A stretch of 64,000 nucleotides of DNA from positions 24,001-88,000 of IMG/VR virus record IMGVR_UViG_3300005253_000487; one strand, given 5' to 3'. Each line of letters begins with the position of its first letter. The stretch's first letter is position 1. The stretch is from a virus. Position numbers and translations under genes: made by a program. Shown here in pieces: positions 8,910 through 56,189 of the stretch. A model generated the notes under the pieces. The model was not told the origin of the DNA and did no database searches. It saw only the letters and a list, made by a program, of their open reading frames with translations.

Positions 8910-8912
8910 ACC

Positions 8913-9380: not shown

Positions 9381-9400
9381 AAAGGCTAGATTGCCGAGGA

Positions 9401-10024: not shown

Positions 10025-10569
10025 CCATTACTTATGAGTTTGATGGTGCTACTGGTTTTGATAGTGGTTGTACACCGGCAACAGCTTTTAACAAAAATGC
10101 GCGCCTGGGGCGAATTGACTCGACCTTTTTAAGCCGACTCATTCCCCCGGCCACAACAGATGAAATCAGTATGTCTTGGACGACACCTGGGGGCGAGCCC
10201 GGCTTTGCCGACTGGCCTCTTGGTGCTTATGTCGCGCGCATTAATATCAATGCTATTGACTCCGTCGCCAGTATTAAGTTTCAGCTTTTACGCGTGCAGT
10301 CTGGGTGTACAGTAGACGAGACGTTGGGAACGTCCGGCTCTGTCTCTACAACAGGCAATAAGACTTTTACTGTTAACACGGACCCCACGTCTGGGGCGGC
10401 GGGTGATAGATTTCAGTGCCGGATCCTTGGTTCTAACAGCGACCTACACATGACCCAAAATTTCACTATTAACCCAGATATTTCGACCCGATCTGTGATC
10501 GAAGGGCCTTGGTCAGTCGGGGGCATTGCTATTCCTATTGTTTATCACCACCGCCAGAGGAATTTTTAG
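10021..10569 (+). CDS. beta-rich virion protein (182 aa)
   Basis: GTG 10021 overlaps the upstream TGA. The chain is rich in Thr/Ser/Gly with regular strands (VTITYEFDGATGF, NKTFTVNTDPTSG) and ends basic and aromatic (HHRQRNF), as in head or tail decoration proteins. No exact family recognised. Confidence 0.55.
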   Translation: MTITYEFDGATGFDSGCTPATAFNKNARLGRIDSTFLSRLIPPATTDEISMSWTTPGGEPGFADWPLGAYVARININAIDSVASIKFQLLRVQSGCTVDETLGTSGSVSTTGNKTFTVNTDPTSGAAGDRFQCRILGSNSDLHMTQNFTINPDISTRSVIEGPWSVGGIAIPIVYHHRQRNF

Positions 10570-12168: not shown

Positions 12169-13658
12169 TCCTTTACTGGCAGAACCACGTCGCGGCTTTT
12201 GTAGGTGCTCACCGTTACCTGACGGTGGGCATTTTCACACAACCCTTGCAACATGCTTCCGCGCTTGCAGCGACCACCGTTACACCTTCACCAGTGGTCC
12301 TGACGTTGGTGCCAGCAACTCCGACCTTGGTGGCGGGCGCTGTAACCGTTACGCCTAGTCCGGTTGTGGCTACCATCACCCCCGTCGCGCCCACGTTGGT
12401 CGCAGGGGAAGTAACGTTGCTACCTGATCCAGTCATTGCTTCGTTTGTTGTTGGTATACCCACGTTGGTGGCGGGGGAAGCAACACTCTTACCTAATGCC
12501 GTCGTGGCCGCATTTGTTGTTGCCTCGCCCATCGTTACCAACGCGCAGACGATTAATCCCAGCGCCGTCATCGCAACCTTTGCGATAGGAGCACCAACGT
12601 TGGTGGCGGGAGTAGCAACGCTGACGCCGAGTGCTGTCGTGACTACGTTTGTAATTGCGGCACCCATATTAGTAGCGGGAGTAGTAACGTTGACACCTGA
12701 TGCTCTGGTTGCTACGTTTGCAATCGCAGCACCTACGTTGACCCCAGGTGTAGTGACGTTGACGCCCGATGCTGTGATTGCGACATTCGTAGTCACTGTG
12801 CCCACGGCTGTCTTTATCCAGTCACCCAGTCCAGTGATAGCAACGTTTGTTGTGGTGACACCGGCTATACTCACAGGTGGTGCGCTAACACCTAATGTGG
12901 TGGTCGCGTCATTCGTAATTACTGCGCCCACGACTATCTTTATTCAGACGCCTAGTCCAATCATTGCCACGTTTGCGCTAGCAGCACCTACTCTTGTTCC
13001 TGGAGGCATTACAGTTACACCGGATGCAGTGATCATAACACTTGTGATAGGGGTGCCAACTCTTGTTGTGGGGACTGTAACAATGGCACCGAACGCCGTG
13101 GTGGCCACGTTTGCGTTTGTGCCGCCCACCGTCCTCCTAGGTCAAACTGTAACGCCAGGCACCGTAGTCACAACATTCGCGCTCGCTACTCCGACGATGG
13201 TGGCAGGTCCCGTAACAATGATGCCCGCTGCGGTGGCCACTACGTTTGCTGTTGCAGGGCCAACACTCGCTGTAGGAGCAGTGACGTTGACGCCAAGTGC
13301 CATTGTGACAACGTTTGTGGTGCTTGCGCCTACTACAATCTTCATCCAACAACCTAGTGCCATTGTAATGACGTTTGCTATTACAGCGCCAGCATTGATA
13401 GCAGGTGAAGCCACGCTGTTACCCGATGCTGTAATAGTCACATTCGTTATCGCTGTACCGCAGCTCCGGGAGACGGTGAAACCCAGCGTCGTTGTTGCGA
13501 CGTGGTTTGTTGCTGCACCTACTACAGTGCTTGGAACAGCACTTACCCCTTCCGTTGTGTCTGCCACACTTGCCATCACTGCTCCCGCTTTAGTGGCGGG
13601 AGCAGTGACGTTGACGCCCAATGCAGCGATTGCGCCTTTTCCCATTGTCACCCCATAA
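12165..13658 (+). CDS. Val/Thr/Ala/Pro repeat protein (497 aa), ends at in-frame TAA
   Basis: GTG overlaps the previous stop. After about 35 ordinary residues the protein is a tandem array of units of roughly 22 residues with the pattern T-L-x-P-x-A-V-[IV]-A-T-F-x-[IV]-x-x-P-T-L-V-x-G-x; some units carry an alternative linker with TxFIQxPSP. Strict alternation of hydrophobic residues suggests a beta-solenoid or fibre stalk. The TAA at 13656-13658 falls inside the array, and the same frame continues with more units to 14198, so the gene appears interrupted. Nothing enzymatic is seen. Confidence 0.7.
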   Translation: MILYWQNHVAAFVGAHRYLTVGIFTQPLQHASALAATTVTPSPVVLTLVPATPTLVAGAVTVTPSPVVATITPVAPTLVAGEVTLLPDPVIASFVVGIPTLVAGEATLLPNAVVAAFVVASPIVTNAQTINPSAVIATFAIGAPTLVAGVATLTPSAVVTTFVIAAPILVAGVVTLTPDALVATFAIAAPTLTPGVVTLTPDAVIATFVVTVPTAVFIQSPSPVIATFVVVTPAILTGGALTPNVVVASFVITAPTTIFIQTPSPIIATFALAAPTLVPGGITVTPDAVIITLVIGVPTLVVGTVTMAPNAVVATFAFVPPTVLLGQTVTPGTVVTTFALATPTMVAGPVTMMPAAVATTFAVAGPTLAVGAVTLTPSAIVTTFVVLAPTTIFIQQPSAIVMTFAITAPALIAGEATLLPDAVIVTFVIAVPQLRETVKPSVVVATWFVAAPTTVLGTALTPSVVSATLAITAPALVAGAVTLTPNAAIAPFPIVTP

Positions 13659-21758: not shown

Positions 21759-24412
21759 CTGTTCTTGCAGTAGCCCGTATCGTTCTTACGGGAGACACGA
21801 TTGCGTTAACCAAATCGCTCCATGGTGCGTCGGCAGCCATGGAGCAAGCTGGACGGCGCATGACGAAGATTGGCAAGAGCTTAACTACTAAAGTCACGCT
21901 GCCTATTATAGCGATCGGTGGCGTGAGTGTGAAGATGGCTGCAACCTTCGACGCCTCCATGCGAAAGATTGTAGGTCTGGTGGGTGTGCAAAGGGATGTT
22001 GTGGATGGGTGGCGCGATGACGTCCGAAAGTTGGCCGTGCAGTATGGCTCTTCTGCTAATGAAGCAGCGGAAGCGTTGTTCTTCATCACCTCCGCAGGCT
22101 TGCGTGGCTCCGATGCAATGGAAGCCCTCGAGGCGTCACTGAAGGGCACGGCGGCGGGCATGGGGCAGACGGCAACATTGGCGGATGCTGCCACCTCGGC
22201 AATGAACGCGTATGGTGCTGCCAACGTAAGCGCGGAACGGGCGGTGGAGATCCTCACCGCTGCCGTGCGGGCTGGTAAGCTAGAGACGGCCGCGTTGGCG
22301 CCTGTCATTGGTAGATTGTTGCCTACAGCATCTGCCATGAAGATTGGCTTCGCAGAGATTGCGGGCATTTTGGCCGTATTCTCCCGTACCGGTTTGCAGG
22401 CGGCGGAGGGTGCGACGTCTTTGAATAGTGTTATGACAACACTACTCAAACCTAGTCAGTTGGCGACGGAAGCGTTGGCGGAAGTTGGGCTTACGATGGC
22501 GCAACTCCGTGAGACGGCCGCAGGTCCGCAGGGTCTTATTGGAGTGATGCGGTTGTTGGCTGATACGTTTGCGGATGATGATGAGAAGTTGACTGCCATT
22601 ATTCCAAACATTCGTGCGTTCCGTGGCGTGATGAATGTGTTGGCGCAAGATGCAGACATCGTTGATCAAGTGATGTCTGATGTAGCAAACTCCCAGGGTA
22701 TCTTGTCAGAGGCGTTCATCGCATCCATGGGCCCACTCTTCCGGATGAGGCGGGCGTGGGAACAGTTTAAGGAACTCCTACTCAGTGTAGGCTTTGCAAT
22801 CATTCCCGTCATCGTGCCCATCTTTGTAAAGATGGGGAAGGCGTTTGATGTGGTGGCGCATGAGATAGGGAATATGTCTACGACCACCAAGACGGCCGGT
22901 GTGGCCTTAGTAGGGGCGGCTGCCGCCATAGGTCCCGTCCTTGTTGGTCTGGGGTCTGCCGTGTTGGTGATGAAAGCGTTGGGTGTTGCAACGTTGACAG
23001 TGACGACTAGGTTGTTTGGGCTTAGCGCGGTAATGGGAGCAGGTAGTATACTACTCGTTGCTCTTGGCTTGACGGCGGCGGCGATGCTGAAAGTTAAACT
23101 TGCTGCTATTGAAATGGAAGCGTCAACGTTGCGTGCCACTGATAGCATAAAAGCGGGTTTCGCTGATTTAGAACCGGAGGCTGCGGCGCGTAAGGTCGCA
23201 CGCCTTAACATGGTCATAAAGACGATGGAAGGCGATGTAGACAATCTACGCACCCAGGCTGTGATGGCGCAGGCTGCGATGGTGGGTGTAGCGGATGCAA
23301 CAGCAACACAGGCTACCCCGGCGTTTCGTGAGAGTGCAGACTCTTTGCTTGCGGAGGCGGATGCGATAGAAGAAACTATTGCTAGGACGAAAGCGTTTCG
23401 TACTGCATTGCAGGCGGTGGCAAACACAGCGGTTGAGACGGCGAAGGTAGTTGATAAAGGGGCAGGTGGTGGTACTGCACCCGCCGCTTGGATGGTGGCT
23501 GCGAAAGAAGCTATGGAGCTGTTGTCAGCCTCATTACGTGAAACGGTGGTGTTGAATGAGTTGATGGGTGAGAGTTTTGATCTACCCGCTGCACAGGCTG
23601 AGGCCTACGAAGCGGCTATCGTGTCTATGGTTGAGGCAGGTGTGGACCTTGACGTGGCGGTTGGCCAGAATGGAGAAAACCTCCGAGTACTGACTGAACG
23701 TTATTTGGTATTGGCGGCGGGCGTGGACGAGGCAGAAAAGAAGACGAACGCGTTGACGGCAGCACAGGAAGACGCGAAGCGTATTATTGAAGGCATCCGC
23801 ACGCCGACAGAACAGTACGATGCGACGGTAGCAAATCTGCAAAAACACTTGGATGCAACACTGCTCACGCAAGTAGAATTCGATCGGGCGGTAGGGTTGG
23901 CAAAGACTACGTTGGCGGAGGCAACGGCAAGTGGGCTTGAATGGGGTGAGACAATGGAGCGCGCGAGTGCGCATGCATTGGACAGCTTTATTCAGTTCGC
24001 AACGACAGCCGGTGGTGAGTTTAGCGACTTTGTGAACGGGGTTATCCGAGACCTTGTACGTATGGCTGCTAAGATGGCCATTACAGGCGCCTTCAAAAGC
24101 CTTACGGCGAGCCCAATACCCGAGCTGGCGCACGGTGGGTTCCTCCCTGGAGGTAGCCTAGGGTTGGTGGGGGAGCAGGGCCCGGAGTTGGTGCAAGCGG
24201 GGAGGCAAGGGGTGACGGTGCAACCGATGAGTGGCTTGGTGGCGGCAGGAGCGGCGGACACGGGCGGTAACATTCGATTGGCGGTGACAATCCAGGCCAA
24301 TGATGCTAAGAGCTTTAAGGAGATGGTTGAAGCGCATCCGGATGTTGTCACAGCGCCTGTGATGCAGGCGCTTGCGCGTGGCCAAAATCTACGAAGACGT
24401 CTACAAGGGTGA
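21755..24412 (+). CDS. tape measure protein (885 aa)
   Basis: A TP901-type tape measure protein: N-terminal region with KSLTTKVTLPIIAIGG and the conserved helical block AATFDASMRKIVGLVGV to EAAEALFFITSAGLRG (residues ~60-135), long Ala-rich helices, hydrophobic segments around residues 340-440 (VGFAIIPVIVPIFV, GVALVGAAAAIGPVLVGLG) and a C-terminal part with FSDFVNGVIRDLVRMAAKM and ELAHGGFLPGGSLGLVGEQG, the usual tail end. Tail length scales with this gene at about 1.5 angstrom per residue, so roughly 130 nm is expected (inferred). Confidence 0.9.
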   Translation: MTVLAVARIVLTGDTIALTKSLHGASAAMEQAGRRMTKIGKSLTTKVTLPIIAIGGVSVKMAATFDASMRKIVGLVGVQRDVVDGWRDDVRKLAVQYGSSANEAAEALFFITSAGLRGSDAMEALEASLKGTAAGMGQTATLADAATSAMNAYGAANVSAERAVEILTAAVRAGKLETAALAPVIGRLLPTASAMKIGFAEIAGILAVFSRTGLQAAEGATSLNSVMTTLLKPSQLATEALAEVGLTMAQLRETAAGPQGLIGVMRLLADTFADDDEKLTAIIPNIRAFRGVMNVLAQDADIVDQVMSDVANSQGILSEAFIASMGPLFRMRRAWEQFKELLLSVGFAIIPVIVPIFVKMGKAFDVVAHEIGNMSTTTKTAGVALVGAAAAIGPVLVGLGSAVLVMKALGVATLTVTTRLFGLSAVMGAGSILLVALGLTAAAMLKVKLAAIEMEASTLRATDSIKAGFADLEPEAAARKVARLNMVIKTMEGDVDNLRTQAVMAQAAMVGVADATATQATPAFRESADSLLAEADAIEETIARTKAFRTALQAVANTAVETAKVVDKGAGGGTAPAAWMVAAKEAMELLSASLRETVVLNELMGESFDLPAAQAEAYEAAIVSMVEAGVDLDVAVGQNGENLRVLTERYLVLAAGVDEAEKKTNALTAAQEDAKRIIEGIRTPTEQYDATVANLQKHLDATLLTQVEFDRAVGLAKTTLAEATASGLEWGETMERASAHALDSFIQFATTAGGEFSDFVNGVIRDLVRMAAKMAITGAFKSLTASPIPELAHGGFLPGGSLGLVGEQGPELVQAGRQGVTVQPMSGLVAAGAADTGGNIRLAVTIQANDAKSFKEMVEAHPDVVTAPVMQALARGQNLRRRLQG

Positions 24413-34684: not shown

Positions 34685-35188
34685 CTACTCCGCGGGGATC
34701 AAATACGTGGCTGTGCAATTGGGCGTTTCCCACACCTCGACAGACGTGAGGCGTGCGCCCTTGATGGTTGTGTTGAGCGCCGTGTGCAAGGGGCCGGCGA
34801 TCAGACCTGCCCAATACTTCGCCAACTCCTCGGCGGTCGGGATGCATGGGACGGGTACAATACTGTTTCCTAGAAGGGCAACCCTCCTGTCGAGGTAGCT
34901 CACCAGTCGGTCTTCAGGATGTCTTGCCATTACTAATGGGTCAAGCTCCCATAGCATGAAGCAGTGATCAAACTTGGCATGAATGTGTTCCATCATTACG
35001 CGTTTGATGGCGCCGAAGTCTATTATCATACCACTGTCAGGTGCGTTGGTGCTGGGCGACACAAGACTGAGTGCGGACACGCTGGCGATGATCTTGTAGC
35101 GATGCCCATGTAGGTGTCGGCACCGGGAGTCGTGGAAAGGAACGCGGTGCCCAGCGTCGATCTCAATTGTGCGACGGACGACGTACAT
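34685..35188 (-). CDS. queD: 6-carboxy-5,6,7,8-tetrahydropterin synthase (QueD)
   Basis: QueD turns dihydroneopterin triphosphate into carboxytetrahydropterin, the second step to preQ0. The 167-residue chain shows DAGHRVPFHDSRCRHLHGHRY (in parts: DAGHRVP, then CRHLHGHRY), giving the zinc ligands and catalytic Cys in the C-x-x-x-H-G-H motif, FDHCFML with another catalytic His, and VWETPNCTATY with the pterin-binding Glu. ATG 35188 is preceded by AAAGGAG; the longer frame upstream is not conserved. It lies apart from queE/folE but on the same strand. Confidence 0.9.
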   Translation of the reverse strand: MYVVRRTIEIDAGHRVPFHDSRCRHLHGHRYKIIASVSALSLVSPSTNAPDSGMIIDFGAIKRVMMEHIHAKFDHCFMLWELDPLVMARHPEDRLVSYLDRRVALLGNSIVPVPCIPTAEELAKYWAGLIAGPLHTALNTTIKGARLTSVEVWETPNCTATYLIPAE

Positions 35189-35204: not shown

Positions 35205-35768
35205 TTATGTGACATCAAACATGTCTGGGACACTAGGTAGTCTGTCAAACAATTCATCTGGTGTGTAGTACTCCAGTAACAAGTCGAGGCGGATGATACC
35301 GAAACCCATCGTCTCATCACGATACGTAATGAGGCGGCCTAGTGTTGGACGGTATGCCCACAATGCTTCTGCCAGCCACGTGGGCATGATTGCTAGAACG
35401 GGGCGCACGTTTTGTCTGCAGATGAGGAGTGGGATAAACGTGTTGGAAAGCTTCGCTGCTTCCGCCTCCAACTTGCGCCACCAACCACGGATGTTCTGTG
35501 CGGGTTTCATGGTGTAGAGTTCCCACAGCAGATCGCCCTTTCGATGTTTGCATTCCACAATGAAGCGTCGACGGAACTTCTCCCCCTCAGGTCCATTAGG
35601 CGCAAGGTCTCCAGCTTGTCTCCACTCCTCACCTGCCGCCCACCCTCCACTTAGTCTTGTTGGGATGAGTTGCTTGGCATCCTCCCCATAGGTAAGCCAC
35701 TTGGATAGCTGACGCCCAATGAAATTCTCGAAGCGATTGCCTTTAGACTTGCCCCGTCCTGGTTTCAT
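35205..35768 (-). CDS. PD-(D/E)xK-type nuclease (187 aa)
   Basis: The N-terminus KGNRFENFIGRQLSKWL is followed by RLSGGWAAGE, AGDLAPN (likely catalytic Asp, residue ~53) and FIVECKHRKG (E-x-K, residues ~71-75), the D...ExK layout of restriction-type and resolvase-like nucleases; similar phage proteins are called Holliday junction resolvase or VRR-like. It probably acts on DNA during recombination or packaging. Start ATG overlaps a small upstream frame. Confidence 0.65.
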   Translation of the reverse strand: MKPGRGKSKGNRFENFIGRQLSKWLTYGEDAKQLIPTRLSGGWAAGEEWRQAGDLAPNGPEGEKFRRRFIVECKHRKGDLLWELYTMKPAQNIRGWWRKLEAEAAKLSNTFIPLLICRQNVRPVLAIMPTWLAEALWAYRPTLGRLITYRDETMGFGIIRLDLLLEYYTPDELFDRLPSVPDMFDVT

Positions 35769-35924: not shown

Positions 35925-36380
35925 TCACACTACCCCATCACTTTCACGTACGACGTAAGGCCACACGTTGCCAACAAGACCGTCTGGGCCTTGCAGCGCC
36001 ATGGGGATGAGCCAGCGGAGGTTGGGCATGATGGGCCAATTGTGCAGCACCTTGATAGGCGTCCAGAGTACCTGTTCGTCCGTCATGCTACGAATGTTGA
36101 CCTGAGCAAATGAACGGTAGAAGTGGACTACTCCTTGCGTCTCATGTCCTGTATCATGGATGGTGCAGAAATGTTCCCAGTCTATAACGTCTGCCTCGGC
36201 TTCCTCGCGGAACTCTCGGCGCATGGCTTCGAGTCCAGACTCCCCGGGTTCTATCTTCCCGCCTATACCGTTACGATGCCCTGCCTGCCACTCGGGATGG
36301 TTTTTGGTAATGAGAACAACCCGTGCGTCGTGTAACGGGCTGTCGAATAGGAAGCCGACGACGTACTCGATAGTCTTCAT
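35925..36380 (-). CDS. Nudix hydrolase (151 aa)
   Basis: A complete Nudix box, GGKIEPGESGLEAMRREFREE (given as GGKIEPGES and REFREEAEA, residues ~41-65), fits G-x5-E-x7-R-E-U-x-E-E-x-G-U except for Ala/Asp at the end. The enzyme would hydrolyse a nucleoside diphosphate linked to another group, such as dNTPs or modified nucleotides. Next to thyA and the modification genes it may clean the nucleotide pool. Stop and start overlap neighbours. Confidence 0.85.
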   Translation of the reverse strand: MKTIEYVVGFLFDSPLHDARVVLITKNHPEWQAGHRNGIGGKIEPGESGLEAMRREFREEAEADVIDWEHFCTIHDTGHETQGVVHFYRSFAQVNIRSMTDEQVLWTPIKVLHNWPIMPNLRWLIPMALQGPDGLVGNVWPYVVRESDGVV

Positions 36381-37285
36381 ACAGCAATGTCTGCCTTGAT
36401 GGGTGGGTGTGGATTGTAATTGTGCAGGATGATGTCCGTGGCTGTGAAGTCGTCAATCTGTTCCACGTTCACGTTCAGGGACACCTTGGGCAATTGCCTA
36501 CTTCCGCGCTCGATTTGTGTCTCCGCTTGTTCAAAATGATTGTGGTAGAGATGCACATCTCCGAATGAGATGGTCAATGTGTTAGCCTTCAGCCCTGTCA
36601 CACGCGCCACCATCATTGTTAGCAGTGCATAGCTGGCAATGTTGAAGGGGACACCGAGGAATACGTCGGCGCTCCGCATATACATATGGCAATTGAGGTA
36701 GACGGGGTGTGGTCCGCCAGCCTGATACGCGTCCGCGGCCTCTGGTGACACTAGCACTGCGGCCCTCATGCGTTCCTCTTCGTGTGCAACTCCAGGGGTT
36801 ACTTGGAATTGGAAGAGTAGATGGCAGGGTGGTAGACCCATCCGTGGGATGAGTGGAACGTTCCATGCATTGACAATGAGTCTGCGGGACCATGGATTGT
36901 TTTTGATCTCATCGATTACTTGTGCAAGTTGGTCAATGCCTTCTTGCCTCCCCACGGTGTAGTCAGGCCAATGCCTCCATTGATAACCGTAGACTGGTCC
37001 AACATTGCCAACATTGTCTGCCCACTCATCCCAAATACGGACGCCCTTGTCTTGTAGGGATGTGATGTTCTGCTCCCCGCGGATGAACCACAGCAACTCC
37101 TCGACGACGCCCTTCCACCAAACCTTCTTGGTGGTGAGGAGTGGGAAGTTGTTGCCAATGTGGGTGAGGTTTAACTGTTCGCCGAAGAGGGATCGGCGCC
37201 CGGTACCCGTGCGGTCGGGCATGTCGTAACCGCGACTCATGATCCGGCGGATAAGATAGAGGTATCCTTGGTCAGCATAATTCAT
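36377..37285 (-). CDS. thyA: thymidylate synthase (ThyA)
   Basis: The 302-residue protein makes dTMP from dUMP with methylene-tetrahydrofolate. Features: DRTGTGRRSLFG at the N-terminus (phosphate Arg), VEELLWFIRG with catalytic Glu, GPVYGYQWRHW, the active-site Cys in GLPPCHLLFQFQV, and VPFNIASYALL with the Asn that selects dUMP rather than dCMP, so a hydroxymethylase is less likely. There is a short insertion after the Cys loop (GVAHEEERMRAAV). It overlaps both neighbours by 4 bases. Confidence 0.92.
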   Translation of the reverse strand: MNYADQGYLYLIRRIMSRGYDMPDRTGTGRRSLFGEQLNLTHIGNNFPLLTTKKVWWKGVVEELLWFIRGEQNITSLQDKGVRIWDEWADNVGNVGPVYGYQWRHWPDYTVGRQEGIDQLAQVIDEIKNNPWSRRLIVNAWNVPLIPRMGLPPCHLLFQFQVTPGVAHEEERMRAAVLVSPEAADAYQAGGPHPVYLNCHMYMRSADVFLGVPFNIASYALLTMMVARVTGLKANTLTISFGDVHLYHNHFEQAETQIERGSRQLPKVSLNVNVEQIDDFTATDIILHNYNPHPPIKADIAV

Positions 37286-38439
37286 GATACGTCTTCCTTG
37301 AAATGTTGTCGTGTAGGATTAAATGTGCGTTTGAGGCGGGAGGTGCCGAAACGGGTTAGCACGTCATCCACTACTGTACCTCCCCATGTTGCAAACTCAT
37401 TTACCGTAATCTCTTCTTGACCTTGTTTGCCAAGTAATGTGGCATGGTGACCTGTAGTTGTCTCTTCATGTCCTTCCGTAGCAACAGCGATGATAGTAAA
37501 GTCTTGTGCCACGCTAAGGATGGGCTGCCTCTTGCCATGTAGTAGTACGTAGCCTTGCTCAGGGTCATGTAAGTGATCCCGCCGCCGCCCAAGTCTTTGT
37601 GGCACACCGTCTGCATATCCAATCCCAAGGACGGCGATGCGGACGCGTTGTTGTAGGTAGGGTGCGTGGTTGTAATAGCCTACCCACTCCCCCCCTTCTG
37701 CTTCGTGCACACTAACGACGCGAGCGTTGACAGACATAACAGGCCACGGTTTTGGAATCTCAGGGCTGGGCCGTCCGCCGTATAAAAACGAACCTGGGCG
37801 TACAAGGTTGCATTCCCGTAGCGCTGGAGCACGCCATACGCCCGCGCTGTTGGCGATGTGGAGGTAGTGGGGCAGTGGCTTGAGATGTTCTAGCGCTAAC
37901 TCGAAGTAAGAGGCTTGGTGTGTTGTGATGCCGTGGTTGCAATCCGCCGCCGCAAGATGAGTGAATGCCCCATCACAGTGTTGGGCAGCGCACACGGCCA
38001 ACTTCCGCTTGTCTTTCCAGTGGATGCCGTTGCGGTTAAGTCCGGTGTCAATCTCGATGTGGAACGGCAGTCCTTTGTGCCACACCATAGCAACCGCAGG
38101 GTCGTCTATTACAGCCCGGAGCTTCCAGTGTGCGTAGGTGTCTAGGTTGGCAGGGACGGCGGGTGTTAGGACGAGGATGGGATCGTGGACGTAATGCCGC
38201 AGTACAATCCCTTCGTCTAACGTTGCTACACCATAACCCCATACTGGGCCGAAGCTGTTGGAGAGTGCTCTGGCAACCTCCTGCGCGCCGCAGCCGTAGG
38301 CATCTGCTTTGACCATAACAAGGAGTTGTATGTCAACCTTCCCGCGCTCTTCTGCTACCGCGTGGAGTATCTTGGCGTTGGCAACAACGTTGCCTATGTC
38401 GATGGACACCCACGCCTGTGGCCATGCTTGGTGCATCAT
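37282..38439 (-). CDS. alr: alanine racemase-like PLP enzyme (385 aa)
   Basis: Fold type III racemase. The PLP lysine lies in VMVKADAYGCG (residues ~41-51); IEIDTGLNRNGI and LHIANSAG follow; WVGYYNHAPY has the position of the second catalytic Tyr; LGIGYADGVPQRLG is the conserved GYADG block. The usual R-x-C-M-D-Q segment reads SVAQDFT, with the Asp kept. Alr converts L- and D-Ala for peptidoglycan; relatives act on Ser, Lys or other amino acids. It is cotranslated with the sbnB-like gene (ATGA), so diaminopropionate is a possible substrate, by inference only. Confidence 0.8.
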   Translation of the reverse strand: MMHQAWPQAWVSIDIGNVVANAKILHAVAEERGKVDIQLLVMVKADAYGCGAQEVARALSNSFGPVWGYGVATLDEGIVLRHYVHDPILVLTPAVPANLDTYAHWKLRAVIDDPAVAMVWHKGLPFHIEIDTGLNRNGIHWKDKRKLAVCAAQHCDGAFTHLAAADCNHGITTHQASYFELALEHLKPLPHYLHIANSAGVWRAPALRECNLVRPGSFLYGGRPSPEIPKPWPVMSVNARVVSVHEAEGGEWVGYYNHAPYLQQRVRIAVLGIGYADGVPQRLGRRRDHLHDPEQGYVLLHGKRQPILSVAQDFTIIAVATEGHEETTTGHHATLLGKQGQEEITVNEFATWGGTVVDDVLTRFGTSRLKRTFNPTRQHFKEDVS

Positions 38440-39425
38440 AATCCGTGTCCGTGCAACAGTGCCTCCCGCTGTTCACGGAACTCTTGTTGGAACAAAGCAT
38501 ACCCAAGCCCAACATCCCACAGTGCTAGGCCCATGGGGTTCACGATGATGGGATATTTATACTGGAGCTTGGGGTTGACGTCAGAGAACTGTGTGACGTT
38601 GGGCGTGAGTGTTGTTTGCGCTTGCCACGCGTCGTGGTAAGGTGTGTGCTGCGACGCGGCGAATTCCAAATCGTCTACCACGATCCACTTGAACCGATTG
38701 AAGAACCCAGGCGTTACGTCCCGCAAGGATGTATTGATCCATAGGAAGGCATCGAACTTGACATCTGTGGGTACCCACTGTCCTGCGCCCGCAGTGGCAA
38801 GGGAAACAATGTTCGCTACATCTACAACCTCCTGCCACGTATCGAAACAATTGGCCTGTTGGCATTGTTCTACGAAGCGTTGCGCCCGTTCCTTATCGGG
38901 ATCGTAGACAAAGAGTTGCGTGTTAGGCCAAAGTTGGTTGATGTAATGTGCCTGCCACTCATGTACGCGCCCAGCTCCAATGAGTGCGATAGCCGGGGGA
39001 GGGACGCCTCGGCAGAATTCCAAGATGGTCATGATAGCAAAGCCCGCCGTGCGTGCATTGCTCAGGTCCGTGCCGTCGAAGACCAGCAGAGGTAATCCTG
39101 TGTGGGCGCAATTCAAAATCGTTATCGCTTGTCCACGGGGTAACCCACGGGAAGTGTTTGGTGGATGGGACGAAACCCACTTCGCACCGAACACTCCTTC
39201 GGGTTCATCTGGATGCCCAACCCACGCGGACATAGTGATGGCGCGTGAGAAGCCAAAGCCCCCGGTCGTTTCCGGGTGACTAAGGTAACCCTCTTCGCCG
39301 AGGCGCGCCTCACCCGTTCGCTGTAAGGCGAGGAGGAGTTCCATCTGCTTCACCATCCAATGGGCATCCCGCAGGTTGACATACTCCGGCGTCCCTGGGG
39401 CCATCGAAACCCATTTGACGTTCAT
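38436..39425 (-). CDS. SbnB-like dehydrogenase (ornithine cyclodeaminase family)
   Basis: The 329-residue protein belongs to the OCD/mu-crystallin family: FGAKWVSSHPPN with the substrate Lys, TGLPLLVFDGTDLSNARTAG (in parts: DGTDLSNARTAG), and the NAD-binding turn ALIGAGRVHEW (about residues 150-160) with VYDPD after it. Pairing with an SbnA-like synthase on the same operon points to N-(2-amino-2-carboxyethyl)-L-glutamate dehydrogenase, which releases L-2,3-diaminopropionate and 2-oxoglutarate. Ornithine cyclodeaminase itself is the main alternative. The stop overlaps alr. Confidence 0.75.
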   Translation of the reverse strand: MNVKWVSMAPGTPEYVNLRDAHWMVKQMELLLALQRTGEARLGEEGYLSHPETTGGFGFSRAITMSAWVGHPDEPEGVFGAKWVSSHPPNTSRGLPRGQAITILNCAHTGLPLLVFDGTDLSNARTAGFAIMTILEFCRGVPPPAIALIGAGRVHEWQAHYINQLWPNTQLFVYDPDKERAQRFVEQCQQANCFDTWQEVVDVANIVSLATAGAGQWVPTDVKFDAFLWINTSLRDVTPGFFNRFKWIVVDDLEFAASQHTPYHDAWQAQTTLTPNVTQFSDVNPKLQYKYPIIVNPMGLALWDVGLGYALFQQEFREQREALLHGHGL

Positions 39426-39442
39426 GGTCTATGCTCCGTGCG

Positions 39443-39661
39443 TCAATCCACCATTGCTGTGGCACACGCACGGGCTTCATCAATCTTCCCGCCGTCCATA
39501 TCATCCTCAGGCCTTCCGTGCAACTGACGCAGGTTGGCCCACAACTCAACTAAGGCTGGGGCATGTGGGTCGCGCGCGAGTAAGATGAACATGGGTTCAT
39601 CTGGTTCTGCTTTGTCGTAGCAGTCGTTTGGTGTGGGGTTATTCTTCGTTCCCATTATCAC
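39443..39661 (-). CDS. conserved small phage protein (72 aa)
   Basis: The pattern NPTPNDCYDKAEPDEPMFIL, ARDPHAPALVELWA and DEARACATAM is one I recall from many phage genomes, without function. It is acidic and probably helical at the end. It sits between sbnB-like and sbnA-like genes. Confidence 0.7.
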   Translation of the reverse strand: MIMGTKNNPTPNDCYDKAEPDEPMFILLARDPHAPALVELWANLRQLHGRPEDDMDGGKIDEARACATAMVD

Positions 39662-39867
39662 TGCCCCCAGGCAGTGGCATTTGCTGCAGAGCCACGTTCT
39701 GTATCATACCAGTCAGTGACAGCGCTTTGGGCAGCGTTGAGTGCGTTAAGTGCATCTGTCTGACGAGACCGTGCAAGGCTTGCCGTCTGCGCCGCTGCCT
39801 CATAGTCGCTCTGCGCGTCAACCAATTCGGCGGCGAGTGTGGCGATGGACTTCTTATCATCTGTCAT
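39658..39867 (-). CDS. small helical protein (69 aa)
   Basis: ATG 39867 overlaps the sbnA-like stop (ATGA). The product is one long Ala/Asp/Glu helix with a heptad pattern (IATLAAELVDAQSDYEAA), probably a coiled coil. Its TGA overlaps the next ATG. Function unknown. Confidence 0.6.
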   Translation of the reverse strand: MTDDKKSIATLAAELVDAQSDYEAAAQTASLARSRQTDALNALNAAQSAVTDWYDTERGSAANATAWGQ

Positions 39868-40874
39868 GGTGTTAACTCTGGAAAGCCTTTCTGCCGTAAC
39901 CAGGCAGGAGAATAGATAGTCTCCTCGTACATGCGTCCACCGTCTGGGAATAGTGCAATTACAATGTCTTGGGCAACGAAGTGGTGGGCCTTCTTGTGAA
40001 TGGCTGCCCACACGGCGCCACTAGATCCGCCCACGTAAAAATCTGCATGACGAAGACCGTAGCAGGCAGCAAACGCTTCGGCGTCTGACACAATCACGAC
40101 ATCATCGATGAGGGAGCGTTGTAGGTTGGGTGGTTGGTTGAGGCTGGAGCCGATGCCATTAAGGTTGCGTAGGCGGGCGGGGCGGCCAAAGATGGCGGAC
40201 CCTTCCGCGTCTACTGCCACGATGCGGAGTTCCTTAATAGGCAGTCTGCGGCAAAGGCGCCGCAATGCCCGGGCCGAGCCGGAGAGTGATCCACCTGTAG
40301 ATACGGAAGCGAAGTACCACAGTGTCGTATTGCTATGCAGATGCACATTCTTGTTAAGGTCCCGTACGATTTCAATTGCAATGGATTCGAAGGCTAGCGG
40401 GTTGAGGGGATTGCTATATTGATTAACCCAAAACCAATCCGGGTGCTCTTCACACAACGTTTCTACTTTCTTTAGGCGTGTTAGAAGATAGCCTCCCGTC
40501 TTGTCTATGGTTGTTACTTGTATAGTTGTAGCGCCCAACTGACGCATTTCAATACCATGACTTGGCGAGAGTTTTGGATCTGTCACTAAGATTACCCTGA
40601 GACCTAGTTGCCTTCCTACATACGCAAGCGCCACACCCATGTTACCCGATGTGGATTCTATCACCGTGCTTCCCACTCGGAGTTGTGCTTCGGTTAGGAT
40701 CTTGTAGGCGGAGCGTAGCTTCATGGACCCCATTTCATTATGCGATTCCAATTTAGCATACCAACGTCCTGTACCTGTTGCGGAACGTGGCATTGCAACG
40801 AGTGGGGTGTTGCCGACGCCTAAGCATTCCTCCGTACTGGCGCCGTCCTTGATGGTAACAGGGTGTAAGATCAT
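39864..40874 (-). CDS. SbnA-like PLP synthase (cysteine synthase family)
   Basis: The 336-residue fold type II PLP enzyme has the Schiff-base Lys in NEMGSMKLRSAYKI (residue ~52), the substrate loop ESTSGNMGVALA, the phosphate cup SVSTGGSLSG and the SbnA-like ending ALFPDGGRMYEETIYS. SbnA joins O-phospho-L-serine and L-glutamate to give ACEGA; SbnB then frees L-2,3-diaminopropionate. The neighbour on the same operon is SbnB-like, which supports this over plain cysteine synthase. It abuts the queC stop with no space. Confidence 0.75.
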   Translation of the reverse strand: MILHPVTIKDGASTEECLGVGNTPLVAMPRSATGTGRWYAKLESHNEMGSMKLRSAYKILTEAQLRVGSTVIESTSGNMGVALAYVGRQLGLRVILVTDPKLSPSHGIEMRQLGATTIQVTTIDKTGGYLLTRLKKVETLCEEHPDWFWVNQYSNPLNPLAFESIAIEIVRDLNKNVHLHSNTTLWYFASVSTGGSLSGSARALRRLCRRLPIKELRIVAVDAEGSAIFGRPARLRNLNGIGSSLNQPPNLQRSLIDDVVIVSDAEAFAACYGLRHADFYVGGSSGAVWAAIHKKAHHFVAQDIVIALFPDGGRMYEETIYSPAWLRQKGFPELTP

Positions 40875-41720
40875 TTAGCTAAGACCGCCTGTACGATAAT
40901 GAATACGACGTACATCGGGTGGGTTTAGGTACGGCGTCGGGTCAGGTATTTCTGCGAGGCGGTAAGCTAGCTGCCGCTCGTCGCAGTTATGACATACCCC
41001 ACACTGCTCTTCCAGCGCGTCGTGGCAGGACCAGGACAGGTGCAGTGGCAGCCCCAGGCGCGTGCCTTCCTTTACCACCTCGTCCTTGCCTAAGTGGCCG
41101 ATGGGAGACCACACAAGCCACGGGTCCGTTTTCCGTTCCATGGAGAAGCCCCAGTGGAATGCCTGTGTGATGGCCTCACGGAACTCAGGCAAGCAATCGC
41201 CCGCGTGGACCCACTTGTGGGGGGAGTAGGCAATCTCACGGCACCCGTGGCCGTAGCCTAGGATGGCCGCGTAGAGTAGGAAGATGATGTTACGCCCGGG
41301 TACGAAGTACCCTTCGGGGTCTTCGTCCTTGGTGGGAATGTGCCCGCCGCCTACAATGGACACACCCTTCACGTACTCTTTGTAGTCCGTGAGACGTCGA
41401 CGGATGAGAGTGATACGTTCCGGCGGGAAGTGGGCGATGCACTGTTGCGATCGTTTCCATTCAATCTCTGCCGTGTGTTGGTCGTAGTCGAAGAACACAC
41501 ACGTCACCACCTTCTCCGGGGACTTTTCCAGGAGTAGTCCTGCACTGACGAGTGAGTCCATGCCACCTGAGAATAACAGTATCGTGTCCATGCGCCTTAA
41601 TATCTCCTGGTGATGGTAGAGTTTCCACTTCGCTTCCATGTATTCGAAAAGCTCTTCGAGGCTGTCTTCGTTTACTTCATCTTCATACGATATGGGATAT
41701 TCCGTCTGCGCCTTGTTCAA
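40875..41720 (-). CDS. queC: 7-cyano-7-deazaguanine (preQ0) synthase QueC
   Basis: QueC uses ATP and ammonia to turn carboxy-deazaguanine into preQ0. The N-type PP-loop is LLFSGGMDSLV (residues ~48-58), followed by FVPGRNIIFLLYAA and the zinc site SWSCHDALEEQCGVCHNCDE (four Cys). The TTG at 41720 gives a 43-residue acidic extension that overlaps the Mre11-Rad50 end; ATG codons at 41639 and 41591 (AGGAGA upstream) are alternatives giving the usual length of about 237. It is not fused to a Gat domain, so conversion to an archaeosine-like base is not implied. Confidence 0.9.
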   Translation of the reverse strand: MNKAQTEYPISYEDEVNEDSLEELFEYMEAKWKLYHHQEILRRMDTILLFSGGMDSLVSAGLLLEKSPEKVVTCVFFDYDQHTAEIEWKRSQQCIAHFPPERITLIRRRLTDYKEYVKGVSIVGGGHIPTKDEDPEGYFVPGRNIIFLLYAAILGYGHGCREIAYSPHKWVHAGDCLPEFREAITQAFHWGFSMERKTDPWLVWSPIGHLGKDEVVKEGTRLGLPLHLSWSCHDALEEQCGVCHNCDERQLAYRLAEIPDPTPYLNPPDVRRIHYRTGGLS

Positions 41721-51785: not shown

Positions 51786-53015
51786 CTATATAAAATCTAA
51801 AAGGGAACGTTCCATTCCTTCTGGGTGATCTTGTTGGGGGTGTCCATCAAAGGCGCGCAGCACTGGTCCATAATCAGTGCCCAGCACCTCGTGGAGTAAC
51901 GCGTCTGGGTTGGTGTCCGCTTCGTGTTGGAGTCGTGCAATGAGGCGGAAGAGCATGATGTGATTGTGAAAAACGAAGCGGTGGGTCCAATACTCACTAT
52001 ACTTCCCGCTCACAAGGTCAGGGTACTTCTCTTCGTCTTCTAAGATCTGGGTGCATGAATAGCAATCGCATTGCCGCAGGAACATGCGTCCTACATTGTT
52101 GTCCCCACGCTCCTCCAAGGGTTTTGTAGCTAGTCCGTCCTGCACGGTTTGGATGACATGCCGATTGCGTGCTGCGATGTCTGCCGTCTGCGCGTCAGAC
52201 GTAAGGAACTCTAAGCTCGTCTGTGGACCGAGAACCATCAGTGTGGCGGCCGCTTGTGGTGCGACCGCGGCAAGGAAGTGCGCCCGCTTCATGTTGTGTT
52301 GCTTGATAAAGTGAAGGCAGTAGGCTACCGCTTTAGCATTAGAGGATGGGTCACGAGCCTTGAATGCCCAACCTTCTCCCTCGTCCTCGAACGGATAGAT
52401 CCTGGCCATGTCACTCCACCAACGCTCCATGTGCTTCGCGGTCCACCCATGCACTGCACCCCACCAACGGAAAGCGGTATCACCTTTACGAAGGCGGAGG
52501 TACGCGGGAAGCGCCCGCTTCGTGTTCGCCAGTGTAGTCTCAAGCGCAAACTCCCAGATGCGCTTGCCCTCCATGTCCACGGGTGGGATGTCCAACACAA
52601 CGCCCACAGTGCAGAGCGCCTCTTGCCATTTTAACACGTCCACGGGGTCCAGCTTTTGTTGGTGCGGTGCACCAGCGAAGCCCTTGAGCAGGGAGCAAGA
52701 CACTCCGCCCACTTCGTAGAAGGGCACGGAGTTGGACATACCATAGCGCATGGCAGAGAAGCCCCCGGAGTCTCCAAACACATACGCATCCTTTGGTAGC
52801 GCTATCGCCTTGTCACGGAAGTAGTAATACGTGATAAGAGTATGGGGATAGTAGGCGTCTGTTCCCTTCACCTCGTCATCCATCCAATTGACGAAGCTGA
52901 GATCCTGCAATGGGTTACGCGAGGTTGTCTTGCCAAGGAATTGCCGTGAGGCTTTCCCCCCAGGGATCCAACGCGTCGTCCCATCTGCTAGCGCCGGGAG
53001 GTACAAGAACTTCAT
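51786..53015 (-). CDS. dpdA: DpdA-like 7-deazaguanine DNA transglycosylase (TGT family, 409 aa)
   Basis: TGT-fold enzyme that swaps guanine in DNA for a 7-deazaguanine. Seen: VFGDSGGFSAMRYG with the D-S-G-G acid/base (D82), GVVLDIPPVD (D142, base binding), WWGAVHG (184-190) in the place of the Q/G-G loop, FLTSDAQTAD with a possible nucleophile (D274), and the zinc site CDCYSC with His about 29 residues later. tRNA-specific PUA-type domains are absent. It overlaps folE by an ATGA and sits with queE, and queC and queD are elsewhere in the block, which supports DNA rather than tRNA as target. Confidence 0.85.
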   Translation of the reverse strand: MKFLYLPALADGTTRWIPGGKASRQFLGKTTSRNPLQDLSFVNWMDDEVKGTDAYYPHTLITYYYFRDKAIALPKDAYVFGDSGGFSAMRYGMSNSVPFYEVGGVSCSLLKGFAGAPHQQKLDPVDVLKWQEALCTVGVVLDIPPVDMEGKRIWEFALETTLANTKRALPAYLRLRKGDTAFRWWGAVHGWTAKHMERWWSDMARIYPFEDEGEGWAFKARDPSSNAKAVAYCLHFIKQHNMKRAHFLAAVAPQAAATLMVLGPQTSLEFLTSDAQTADIAARNRHVIQTVQDGLATKPLEERGDNNVGRMFLRQCDCYSCTQILEDEEKYPDLVSGKYSEYWTHRFVFHNHIMLFRLIARLQHEADTNPDALLHEVLGTDYGPVLRAFDGHPQQDHPEGMERSLLDFI

Positions 53016-53656
53016 AGTGGATGCTCCGTGCGGACCAATTGTAGGAACTCCGCACGCGCCTCAGGCTTCGTTAGGAACACCCCGCGGAGTGCTGAAGTGG
53101 AGAGATCGCCTTTGTGTTCCACCCCACGTAGTTCCATGCACATGTGGCGGGCGTGGATAACGACGCCTACTCCCCCCCGTGGCCCAAGATTGCGTGCCCG
53201 CTTACGCCACCCAGGGCCGCCTTTGTCCTCTTCCTTACCGGGGTCCTTGTCCACTACAAGGCTGGCGACGTAGTCTGCGATCTGTGCCGTCAGCTCCTCT
53301 TGCACCTGAGGGCGTCTTGCAAACCAATCTGTAATGCGTGAGAGTTTGGACAGTCCCACCAACTTGCCTGTACCTGGAACGTAACCAATTGTAGCTTCTC
53401 CGAGGAAGGGTAGTAGGTGGTGGGCACACATAGAGCGTATGGGAATGTGACGTAGCACTATCATCTCATCTACGTCCGTATCGAACGTCGTGACCTTTGG
53501 ACCGTGCTCATTTAGTCCACGGCACAGTTCGTGCGTCCATGCTTTGGCGGCCCGCTTTGGTGTATCCTCCAGATGCCCCTCTAGCTTTTCGTAGCCAAGG
53601 CAGCGTAAAACCTCGGCGAAGGCAGTTGCCAATCCTTCCTCGTCTATCTTGTGCAT
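53012..53656 (-). CDS. folE: GTP cyclohydrolase I (FolE)
   Basis: FolE opens GTP to dihydroneopterin triphosphate, the first step to preQ0. The 214-residue chain has EDTPKRAAKAW, RSMCAHHLLPFLGEA with zinc Cys and His, GKLVGLSKLSRI, QVQEELTAQI and HMCMELRGVEHKG with the second zinc Cys. A charged loop (DPGKEEDKGGPGWRKRARN) is inserted before the last strand. The TAATG overlap with queE fixes the start at 53656. Confidence 0.92.
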   Translation of the reverse strand: MHKIDEEGLATAFAEVLRCLGYEKLEGHLEDTPKRAAKAWTHELCRGLNEHGPKVTTFDTDVDEMIVLRHIPIRSMCAHHLLPFLGEATIGYVPGTGKLVGLSKLSRITDWFARRPQVQEELTAQIADYVASLVVDKDPGKEEDKGGPGWRKRARNLGPRGGVGVVIHARHMCMELRGVEHKGDLSTSALRGVFLTKPEARAEFLQLVRTEHPL

Positions 53657-54462
53657 TAACGTACTCCTATCACCTTGTGGATTTGAACGCTGATGCGCCA
53701 ACGTGGATCATTACGTGTGATTTCCAGACAGCGGTCCACGGCGCCTGGAGCGAAGCCCGGGAAGCCTTTGCGCCACTCTTCGCCACTGCCGTCACTAAGC
53801 ACGGCGGGACTGACGTAGTGCTTGGGTGCCGCGTAGTAGATTGGGTGTCCGGTATTCTCGTCTGCGATAACGTAACGATACTCTCCACCACGCCCGTGGG
53901 TCATTGCACGTTTTGATAGTAGTGTTATGACTTCGCGTGAGAGCTTAGACGATTGTGGATTGTGATTGTGGGCAAGTGCGGTTGATGTTTGGGCAATCTG
54001 GTCCTTAGGACTTACGGTAATCCAATCCACGGTCTCGAGCGTCTCCCGGTACGTCGTACCGTTTGTTTCAACAGCGACGTAGAAAGTGGGAGTATGTTGC
54101 ATGGCGCGTAACACGACGGCGTCGAACTGCGGAGAGGCGGTGGGTTCCCCCCCGGTAAGGATGAGCATGGGTGCATCCTCCAAGCGTGCTCTGCCAAATG
54201 TGCGTACCTTGGGTATGAGTGGTGCAATCATGTCGTCAAACAATGCGTCGAGTGTTACTTTATGCCTAGCTTTCATGTAAGGGGTGTCGCACACGACACC
54301 GGGTGCAAACTCGCACGCGAGTGGACAGCCGGCAAAGCGCACAAAGATGGCCCAACGCCCAGCATTACGTCCCTCACCTTGTGGAGCAGCAAAGACTTCG
54401 ACCAGTGAGACTGTTGGTTCCAGTTTAGGGGCCCCTCCACGGTCTCGAGCGTCTCTCGGCAC
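53656..54462 (-). CDS. queE: 7-carboxy-7-deazaguanine synthase (QueE)
   Basis: A radical SAM enzyme that contracts carboxytetrahydropterin to carboxy-deazaguanine. Features: VEVFAAPQGEGRNAGR, FVRFAGCPLACEF with a third Cys in GVVCDTPYM (cluster ligands), LILTGGEPTASP, VAVETNGTTY and the QueE ending RWRISVQIHKVIGVR. The GTG start at 54462 gives an Arg/Asp-rich 20-residue front not found in the family; it is encoded by a 32-base copy of an internal queE segment. It is coupled to folE. Confidence 0.9.
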   Translation of the reverse strand: MPRDARDRGGAPKLEPTVSLVEVFAAPQGEGRNAGRWAIFVRFAGCPLACEFAPGVVCDTPYMKARHKVTLDALFDDMIAPLIPKVRTFGRARLEDAPMLILTGGEPTASPQFDAVVLRAMQHTPTFYVAVETNGTTYRETLETVDWITVSPKDQIAQTSTALAHNHNPQSSKLSREVITLLSKRAMTHGRGGEYRYVIADENTGHPIYYAAPKHYVSPAVLSDGSGEEWRKGFPGFAPGAVDRCLEITRNDPRWRISVQIHKVIGVR

Positions 54463-54627: not shown

Positions 54628-55119
54628 TTAGATGTTGTCGAGCAGTCCACCTGTGGGTTTTGCAGCTTCCACCTTTGCTGGTGCTGGAGGTTCAACACCG
54701 AAATGGATGTACAACGCATCCGTGCCACCTGCAAGGTCGATGATCTCTTGCATCTCTTCTACCACGTGTCGGGGTTCTCCCAACACCTTCACCATCCGTT
54801 CTGTTAATGCTTCTGCCGCCTTGGGCTTTTTGGGCGCCACATAGGGTAGACGGGGTGCACCAGCGCCCTTGGGCAGTAACGCTTGCCAGGTACCGACGAT
54901 GAGTGCAGGTTCCCGCCGGAGATCCATTTGCAGATAGCGTGCGGCAATGGCGTAGTGCTTATTCCCCGCCAGGAAACGGTGCATCATGTACGTGGGTGCA
55001 GTACCCGAGAGCTTTGTCTTGGTCCATAGGCTATCTAGCCACGCGAATAAATTAGATGCCATAATATCCTTATCTCGTATGAAGGCGTTGAAATCTATCA
55101 CCCGTCCTTGTTCTACCAC
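54628..55119 (-). CDS. clamp loader small subunit, gp62-like (163 aa)
   Basis: The pattern NLFAWLDSLWTKTKLSG, then PTYMMHRFLAGN, ALLPKG and LPYVAPKK (F-x-W-[LI]...TK...P-x-[YF]-M-x-x-R-[FG]-L) resembles T4-type gp62 clamp loader subunits in many phages. It stands near a gp44-like ATPase and a clamp. The GTG at 55119 sits beside the upstream stop; ATG 55062 with AAGGAT is an equally good start. The C-terminal 50 residues are Pro/Ala/Glu-rich. Confidence 0.6.
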   Translation of the reverse strand: MVEQGRVIDFNAFIRDKDIMASNLFAWLDSLWTKTKLSGTAPTYMMHRFLAGNKHYAIAARYLQMDLRREPALIVGTWQALLPKGAGAPRLPYVAPKKPKAAEALTERMVKVLGEPRHVVEEMQEIIDLAGGTDALYIHFGVEPPAPAKVEAAKPTGGLLDNI

Positions 55120-55607
55120 CCTTCGGGTAGATGTTCTAGGAAGTGATAGATTATTTTAGCAGCACAATCCAAAGTGACTGTATTCTGATCATCGCCCGAG
55201 AATGTGATTGATGCAATGACACGTCGATCATTGTAACGACCATATAGTAAATCGATTCTGTCTATGGCAGCGTCTTCAACCAAACGGGTTGCGTGCTGGA
55301 CAAACATATTAAATTTGTGTTGGCCAAACCATAGCCATAGATTTGCAGGAGCGCTCCAATGCTGCTCGTCGCTACGTTGGTGCCCGGCGCAAGACTGTAG
55401 AGTGCATATTCCCTTCAGATCATTTATCGCAGCGCATAAAGGGATAATGCGGTCATCTGGGTAGCCCATACCACCTGGTCCACGTGGTCCCTTTATCTTC
55501 CCGTGCCACAAATGTAGCTCACGCGTCTTGTCCTTGCGTGTCATGTGTGTAATATGGTTTGGCGTGTGAAGCATGTTGTCCAGTAACGCCATCAATGCGT
55601 TGGGCAT
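55113..55607 (-). CDS. hypothetical protein with CAGH motif (164 aa)
   Basis: The segment IIPLCAAINDLKGICTLQSC followed by AGHQ is the clearest feature; the Cys/His pattern may hold a metal. The second half alternates helix and strand (HATRLVEDAAIDRID, RRVIASITFSGD). I recall similar segments in uncharacterised phage proteins. Start abuts the phosphoribosyltransferase stop. Confidence 0.6.
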   Translation of the reverse strand: MPNALMALLDNMLHTPNHITHMTRKDKTRELHLWHGKIKGPRGPGGMGYPDDRIIPLCAAINDLKGICTLQSCAGHQRSDEQHWSAPANLWLWFGQHKFNMFVQHATRLVEDAAIDRIDLLYGRYNDRRVIASITFSGDDQNTVTLDCAAKIIYHFLEHLPEGW

Positions 55608-56189
55608 TTATACGGGTTCCCCGCTAATGCCGCGGGGCTTTGTTTCGTCGATGCGCGTAATGTAAGGGAGGTGTCGATATCCTTCCGCGTGGTCCATACC
55701 GTATCCCACAACGAAGGCGGGTTGGGACATACAGAAGCCTGTGAAACGCGGATGGTTGAGTCGTCCCGCCTTCGTGTTCTTGTTCAATAGCACGCACGCC
55801 TCCACACTCTTGGGTTCTTGTGCTTTGATAATATCGAACACGCGCCGGAGCGTAGTACCGCTGTCCAGTATGTCGTCCACCACCAAGACGTGCTTCCCGC
55901 GGTAAATGGTGTCTGGTGGTACGTAACCAAGCTTCACCCAACCTGGCGACTCCATCCCCGATCCATACGATGCGACAATCATAAAGTCTACCGTGTGGGG
56001 TAGTGTGATGTGCCGCATCAAGTCTGCCAAGAAGATAAAGCTGCCTTTGAGCAGTCCGATGAGTAGTAGTGGCGCATACTCCGCTTGCTTGTAATGCTCC
56101 TCGATGTCAGAACCTAGCTGCACTACACGCTCATGTAGCAGACTTTGGCTTATGAATTGTGCGTCGGGGGTGTAGGGCACGTCTGTCAT
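55608..56189 (-). CDS. hypoxanthine phosphoribosyltransferase-like (193 aa)
   Basis: A type I phosphoribosyltransferase with LLLIGLLKGSFIFLADL (PPi loop), DFMIVASYGSGM and the PRPP motif VLVVDDILDSGTTL (residues ~98-111), then ACVLLNKNTKAGR and VVGYGMDHAEGYRHLPYI, the hypoxanthine/guanine type ending. It makes IMP or GMP from free bases. In this phage it could supply GTP for the preQ0 pathway or recover guanine released by DpdA (inference). Confidence 0.9.
   Translation of the reverse strand: MTDVPYTPDAQFISQSLLHERVVQLGSDIEEHYKQAEYAPLLLIGLLKGSFIFLADLMRHITLPHTVDFMIVASYGSGMESPGWVKLGYVPPDTIYRGKHVLVVDDILDSGTTLRRVFDIIKAQEPKSVEACVLLNKNTKAGRLNHPRFTGFCMSQPAFVVGYGMDHAEGYRHLPYITRIDETKPRGISGEPV

Follow-up and report, generated by a model that had tools for sequence, protein, structure and literature searches.

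A window of 64,000 bases, corresponding to bases 24001-88000 of the 88,000-base virus record IMGVR_UViG_3300005253_000487, was analyzed with respect to a tightly coupled run of minus-strand genes (41720 down to 35925) in which a predicted pathway for L-2,3-diaminopropionate (L-Dap) adjoins a divergent member of the QueC family. The virus is a tailed phage according to its terminase, DNA polymerase and tape-measure genes. The L-Dap gene pair (sbnA and sbnB), the enzymes for 7-carboxy-7-deazaguanine (CDG) and the loss from QueC of two residues essential for the formation of preQ0 (7-cyano-7-deazaguanine) are strongly supported by our sequence comparisons. These features might belong to a new class of DNA hypermodification, in which L-Dap made by the phage would be joined to CDG by a repurposed QueC and the product inserted by an enzyme resembling tRNA-guanine transglycosylase (TGT), a reading that we consider rather doubtful in its entirety. 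The genes of the run are as follows.

40875..41720, minus strand: queC-family gene (Pfam QueC, 1.1e-28), 281 amino acids in the frame starting at TTG
39864..40874, minus strand: sbnA-like pyridoxal phosphate (PLP) synthase (TIGR03945, E 9.6e-82), predicted to convert O-phosphoserine and glutamate to N-(1-amino-1-carboxyl-2-ethyl)-glutamic acid (ACEGA)
39658..39867, minus strand: small open reading frame (ORF) of 69 amino acids, overlapping the sbnA stop by 4 bp, with a weak match to phrog_653 (unknown function)
39443..39655, minus strand: small ORF of 70 amino acids, starting Met-Gly-Thr, with no match in the PHROG search
38436..39425, minus strand: sbnB-like NAD-dependent dehydrogenase (TIGR03944, E 1.5e-41), predicted to convert ACEGA to L-Dap and 2-oxoglutarate
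37282..38439, minus strand: alanine racemase family gene (alr), fold-type III PLP enzyme (TIGR00492; VanT-G structure 4ecl, 1.1e-36)
36377..37285, minus strand: thyA (Pfam 9.9e-105; NF002497)
35925..36380, minus strand: Nudix hydrolase (Pfam NUDIX, 8.6e-08)

All genes of this run that were named in a preliminary description of the sequence were found at their places on the minus strand, while the two small ORFs separating sbnA from sbnB had been absent from it. No bases lie between queC and sbnA (gap of 0 bp), and the alr/sbnB, thyA/alr and nudix/thyA pairs each overlap by 4 bp (ATGA type).

Predicted synthesis of L-Dap

Among the NCBIfam models, TIGR03945 was the best match of the SbnA-like protein by a lead of 123 bits and TIGR03944 that of the SbnB-like protein by 91 bits (142.5 bits, with the next family at 51). 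The best solved structures were Staphylococcus aureus SbnA (5d84, 1.7e-44) and SbnB (4m54, 1.4e-14), with CmnK as a further match of the SbnB-like protein. Identity to aligned family members was 31-37% for the SbnA-like and 21-26% for the SbnB-like protein, and 28 columns were invariant across six SbnB-like proteins.

In S. aureus SbnA, Arg132, Tyr152 and Ser185 have been reported to select O-phosphoserine (PMC12414870). The phage protein keeps all three, its residues K52, S76, R133, Q152, Y153 and S192 corresponding to SbnA K47, S75, R132, Q151, Y152 and S185, and K52 is the retained PLP lysine. Of 80 bacterial SbnA proteins, 79 carry the Arg, 79 the Tyr and 74 the Ser at the selecting positions, which are occupied by Ala/Phe/Gly in Escherichia coli CysK and CysM as well as in a Lactococcus phage cysteine synthase. 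The presence of Arg/Tyr/Ser instead of Ala/Phe/Gly contradicts the possibility, named in the preliminary description, that the SbnA-like protein is only a cysteine synthase. Since the phage protein keeps the O-phosphoserine-selecting residues, synthesis of L-Dap is expected, and we consider it very likely from the sequence that the phage makes this amino acid. Among the 80 loci of bacterial SbnA genes, 51 encoded SbnB within 6 kb, while neither Alr nor QueC was found within that distance at any of them (0/80); the pairing of the two genes is thus natural and the company that they keep here is new. The initial assignment of the pair to a Dap pathway therefore holds as a predicted activity, with specificity residues, pairing and best families in agreement.

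Alternatively, the two enzymes could make another product, such as a beta-substituted alanine, or use an amine donor besides glutamate, so that no Dap would be formed. Both proteins score below the curated equivalog cut-offs of their families (274.5 bits versus 349.95 for TIGR03945 and 142.5 bits versus 326.9 for TIGR03944), the SbnB-like protein is distant from other SbnBs as given above, and in the SbnA tree the phage protein was unplaced on a long branch (1.26). Such a product is nevertheless improbable, given that all three selecting residues are kept and that the genes are paired as at most of the bacterial loci.

A QueC-family protein without two preQ0-essential residues

The likelier start of queC is the ATG at 41591, which stands behind AGGAG/AAGG and gives a protein of 238 amino acids; the N-terminal extension of the longer frame probably results from a wrongly placed start and was discounted. 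With 81.7 bits, the protein does not reach the TIGR00364 cut-off of 150.3. It keeps the SGGxDS motif, VPxRN (as VPGRN), Asp133-Cys134 and the four zinc cysteines, and differs (E. coli numbering) in the change of Gly36 to Asp, the replacement of Tyr131 by a gap or Ala and the change of Tyr189 to His. In E. coli QueC, the alanine mutant of either Tyr131 (of the YPDC box) or Tyr189 is dead for preQ0 formation (PMC13329287). In canonical QueC, Tyr189 sits beside the first zinc cysteine.

Both tyrosines are close to invariant. Tyr189 was present in all 89 members of a first set consisting of nine references and 80 viral QueCs, which had been chosen on the YPDC box and are therefore uninformative on Tyr131. 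In a second set, comprising the same nine references and 76 viral QueCs found by other boxes, both residues were present in 84 of 85 proteins. The sole exception, L246, has Ile at position 131 and His at 189, and Asp36 is common to this protein and the phage QueC alone. L246 (L246:632-1312, at 17.7-18.4 kb of record G001) is a viral QueC with YDQ and 28% identity to the phage QueC, and its 19-kb fragment contained no further match to a Que or Dap gene. The two proteins suggest a small unrecognised QueC subclass.

A confident structural model of the phage QueC built with 35 viral relatives (predicted local distance difference test score, pLDDT, 87.7) matched the QueC structures 2pg3 and 3bl5 in the Protein Data Bank as well as Cap9 (9nto), the latter at a root mean square deviation of 2.9 A. 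A QueC tree that grouped the phage protein with a Cap9 fragment was flagged for long-branch attraction and not used. With Tyr131 and Tyr189 lost and the activation motifs kept, the phage protein would still activate the carboxylate of a deazaguanine and not be built for the two-step synthesis of the nitrile. It thus looks like a carboxylate-activating enzyme that is not a canonical preQ0 synthase.

Cap9, a QueC-like protein of type IV cyclic oligonucleotide-based antiphage signaling systems (CBASS), joins CDG to the amine of an N-terminal glycine, which replaces ammonia (PMC13279940). The phage QueC could likewise modify a protein N-terminus, such as that of the small ORF at 39443-39655, with the TGT-like protein described below in a Cap10-like role. 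The loss of Tyr189 is common to both proteins, their structures superpose, and the Met-Gly-Thr start of the ORF product resembles the MGTS of QatB (PMC13279940). A glycine at position 2 is common, however, the neighbouring genes include no CD-NTase or QatB-like partner, and the Dap genes would be left unexplained, which makes this activity highly improbable.

A possible route from L-Dap to a modified base

The remaining 7-deazaguanine genes lie on both sides of the run. The same leftward run holds, 10 kb upstream, an overlapping trio formed by the TGT-like gene, folE and queE, while queD is located downstream.

53656..54462, minus strand: queE, CDG synthase of the radical SAM type (TIGR04508, 3.5e-24; phrog_2076)
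53012..53656, minus strand: folE, GTP cyclohydrolase I (Pfam 4.8e-51)
51786..53015, minus strand: DpdA-like transglycosylase of the TGT superfamily, assigned by motifs; overlaps folE
35205-35768, minus strand: PDDEXK_15 phage endonuclease, between queD and the Nudix gene
34685..35188, minus strand: queD (PTPS, 7.7e-25; TIGR03367)

Together with queC, these genes make up a complete gene set of the phage preQ0 type, which encloses the Dap pair. Within this set FolE, QueD and QueE are clear, QueC is divergent and DpdA was recognized by motifs alone. The TGT-like protein contains DSGGF, D-x7-ARNxH, CDCYSC and HN, which follow one another as in E. coli TGT. In our reading of the sequence, the Asp eight residues ahead of ARNxH is spaced like the nucleophile of E. 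coli TGT. Its pairwise score against E. coli TGT was reached by 5 of 300 shuffles, and the assignment therefore rests on the motifs. Its DSGxFSA box matches that of phage DpdA proteins, and action on DNA is favoured by the phage context. An AlphaFold model made without relatives (pLDDT 33.5) was not used.

From these components we propose the following scheme. SbnA and SbnB would convert O-phospho-L-serine and L-glutamate via ACEGA to L-Dap and 2-oxoglutarate, and FolE, QueD and QueE would provide CDG. The divergent QueC would adenylate the carboxylate of CDG, and an amino group of Dap would take the place of the two rounds of ammonia to yield a CDG-Dap amide. The TGT/DpdA-like enzyme would then swap guanine in phage DNA for the CDG-Dap base, and the resulting amino-acid-bearing 7-deazaguanine would shield the phage DNA. 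QueC is proposed as the Dap ligase because the adjoining gene is predicted to serve the synthesis of a diamino acid and because QueC has lost its preQ0 residues; that Dap is the amine acceptor, that the product enters DNA and that it protects the phage is inferred. According to the preliminary description there was no obvious ligase. It is correct that none is obvious, but its position and residue loss make the divergent QueC itself a candidate that had been overlooked. The scheme as a whole, with QueC as Dap ligase and insertion into DNA, is tentative and less likely than not, while the chance that Dap is joined to a 7-deazaguanine in one way or another falls a little short of even.

In addition to the sub-threshold scores of SbnA and SbnB, several points weigh against the scheme. 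The tie between Dap and QueC is drawn from position and residue loss, and the base-stacking Tyr of Cap9 is lost in the phage QueC, so that its base specificity may differ. The TGT-like protein gave no match to the PF01702, PADLOC, PHROGs or NCBIfam profiles and could act on tRNA. The divergence of QueC could reflect drift, with the host QueC making preQ0, and the racemase is without a role. Finally, the 88-kb record is probably incomplete, as one gene runs past its right end, and another ligase may lie outside.

A vicinal diamine, such as the 1,2-diamine Dap, can cyclise with a nitrile to an imidazoline with loss of ammonia. This general chemistry supports a different route, in which QueC would still make preQ0 and an ArcS-like or other enzyme would add Dap to the nitrile, either free or in DNA, to give an amidine or cyclic imidazoline. 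The Dap genes do lie within the pathway run, and amidotransferases working on the preQ0 nitrile occur in phages and archaea (PMC6884629). On the other hand, the scanned genes gave no recognisable domain of ArcS, QueF-L or a glutamine amidotransferase, and the QueC residues required for preQ0 are gone; we therefore regard this route as unlikely to be the one used.

The racemase and thyA bear on further uses of Dap. The racemase scored above the NCBI cut-off of TIGR00492 (176.5 versus 168 bits), and the best match among solved structures was the serine racemase VanT-G. The motifs of the PLP lysine and the catalytic Tyr (VKADAYG and GYADG) are present, while the substrate-side CMD motif reads AQD. 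Neither the family scores nor the solved relative pointed to Dap as a substrate. The earlier suggestion that both stereoisomers of Dap are made is not borne out by a racemase that passes the alanine racemase cut-off. ThyA is an ordinary thymidylate synthase (NF002497, 347.9 bits, above the cut-off of 327), so that a thymine handle at the nucleotide level is unsupported, and the attachment of Dap to a thymine derivative, likewise considered at first, was rejected.

Dap could also serve apart from DNA, as a toxic or cell-wall metabolite together with the racemase or in a virion glycan, with the Dap and deazaguanine genes sharing regulation and QueC having drifted. Consistent with this, the racemase truly belongs to the Alr family, is coupled to sbnB and has no role in the DNA scheme, thyA and nudix of the same run belong to general metabolism, and a block of sugar and methyltransferase genes is present elsewhere in the record. 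The direct abutment of sbnA and queC argues against a separate function, as do the QueC changes at otherwise near-invariant positions and the fact that no nonribosomal peptide synthetase (NRPS), siderophore synthetase or amino acid ligase was found among the scanned genes. On balance we consider such a function somewhat unlikely.

If the DNA scheme is true, it identifies a new DNA base by its amino acid and its ligase and predicts the exact masses. Amide ligation to a small molecule would extend the known functions of the QueC fold, and the product would be an amino-acid-bearing deazapurine in DNA. Even without the DNA link, a Dap pathway in a virus, together with a QueC lacking its preQ0 residues, would be unexpected and testable with few purified proteins.

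Gene context, distribution and comparison with known systems

Nearly all genes between 33.7 kb and the right end of the window are oriented leftward. The GC content at third codon positions of the genes in the Dap run resembles that of the remaining leftward genes with the exception of sbnA, which is lower (0.53 versus 0.63 +/- 0.05), and a recent joint arrival is thus not evident. Promoter scans gave results at chance level, and terminator-like sites were below chance. The same run as the dpdA-like gene, folE and queE includes a gene of the hypoxanthine phosphoribosyltransferase (HPRT) family (window 55608-56189, minus strand; above the NCBI cut-off), which possibly represents base salvage tied to the deazaguanine pathway, and an adjoining gene for a TYW3-like protein (window 55113-55607, minus strand) with weak matches (Pfam E 8e-4). 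A sugar and modification block is located on the plus strand among structural genes (record 22076-24178, L003:3077-5179, and window 210-6906). It encodes a CMP-sugar cytidylyltransferase (KdsB-like), an arabinose-5-phosphate isomerase-like protein with SIS and CBS domains, glycosyltransferase-like proteins, two or three methyltransferases and a radical SAM/SPASM protein, and perhaps serves virion glycan or tail modification. Furthermore, a MoxR/VWA-type module on the minus strand (record 8670-12514, L002) brings together genes for a DUF2201/VWA metallopeptidase-like protein, a DUF3150 protein and an AAA ATPase.

SbnA, SbnB or Alr were not encoded near queC at any of 156 queC-bearing viral loci, some of which share contigs (flanks of at most 6-8 kb, depending on the length of the contig). 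Searches of viral contigs returned nothing closely related to SbnA, SbnB, the TGT-like protein or RecA. Profile scans for SbnA and SbnB across 2.9 million viral contigs, which required an exact match to a short conserved peptide and could have missed distant relatives, gave one match each (L010, L011), both of which were rejected as host-side DNA beside prophages in our reading of their genes. A phage relative of the genes that would allow joint occurrence to be compared, a condition set in the preliminary description, was thus not found. Matches to SbnA, SbnB and Alr in the phage collection were apparent bacterial contaminants or ordinary cysteine synthases, and no SbnA/SbnB pair of a phage's own was found in phage records. 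DNA similarity to known phages was limited to short thyA patches, and the literature search returned no paper joining Dap to phage DNA modification. The combination of sbnA, sbnB and alr with queC is absent from the other viral contigs examined and from the 80 bacterial SbnA loci.

Bacterial Dap pairs, as in staphyloferrin B synthesis, a Pantoea dapdiamide-type cluster, a Streptomyces plasmid cluster and CmnB/CmnK, consist of the same two coupled families with the same O-phosphoserine-selecting SbnA residues. They adjoin siderophore or NRPS genes, whereas the phage pair adjoins queC and alr. Modification by 7-deazaguanine pathways has been described for phage 9g and other phages (PMC6884629). 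The set of phages 9g, Rosebush, Dp-1 and CAjan is FolE-QueD-QueE-QueC-DpdA; the present phage likewise encodes FolE, QueD, QueE and QueC with a TGT-superfamily gene on one strand, and differs in a QueC without two preQ0-essential residues, a very divergent TGT-like gene and the added Dap genes. Cap9 and the phage QueC have in common the QueC fold, the ATP and zinc motifs and the loss of the Tyr adjacent to the zinc cysteine, the site of Tyr189 reading SCES in Cap9. However, Cap9 keeps the base-stacking Tyr115 (YxDC) where the phage protein reads AGDC, and Cap9 partners a CD-NTase while the neighbours of the phage queC are sbnA and an SbcCD-like nuclease frame. Synechococcus phage S-B43 uses CmoX/CmoY to form a carboxymethylcytosine-glycine amide (PMC12783734). 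The likeness to the scheme proposed here lies in a carboxylated base to which an amino acid is attached by ATP-dependent amide formation, while the base is cytosine, the ligase is asparagine-synthetase-like and the amino acid is ordinary glycine rather than one made by a special phage pathway.

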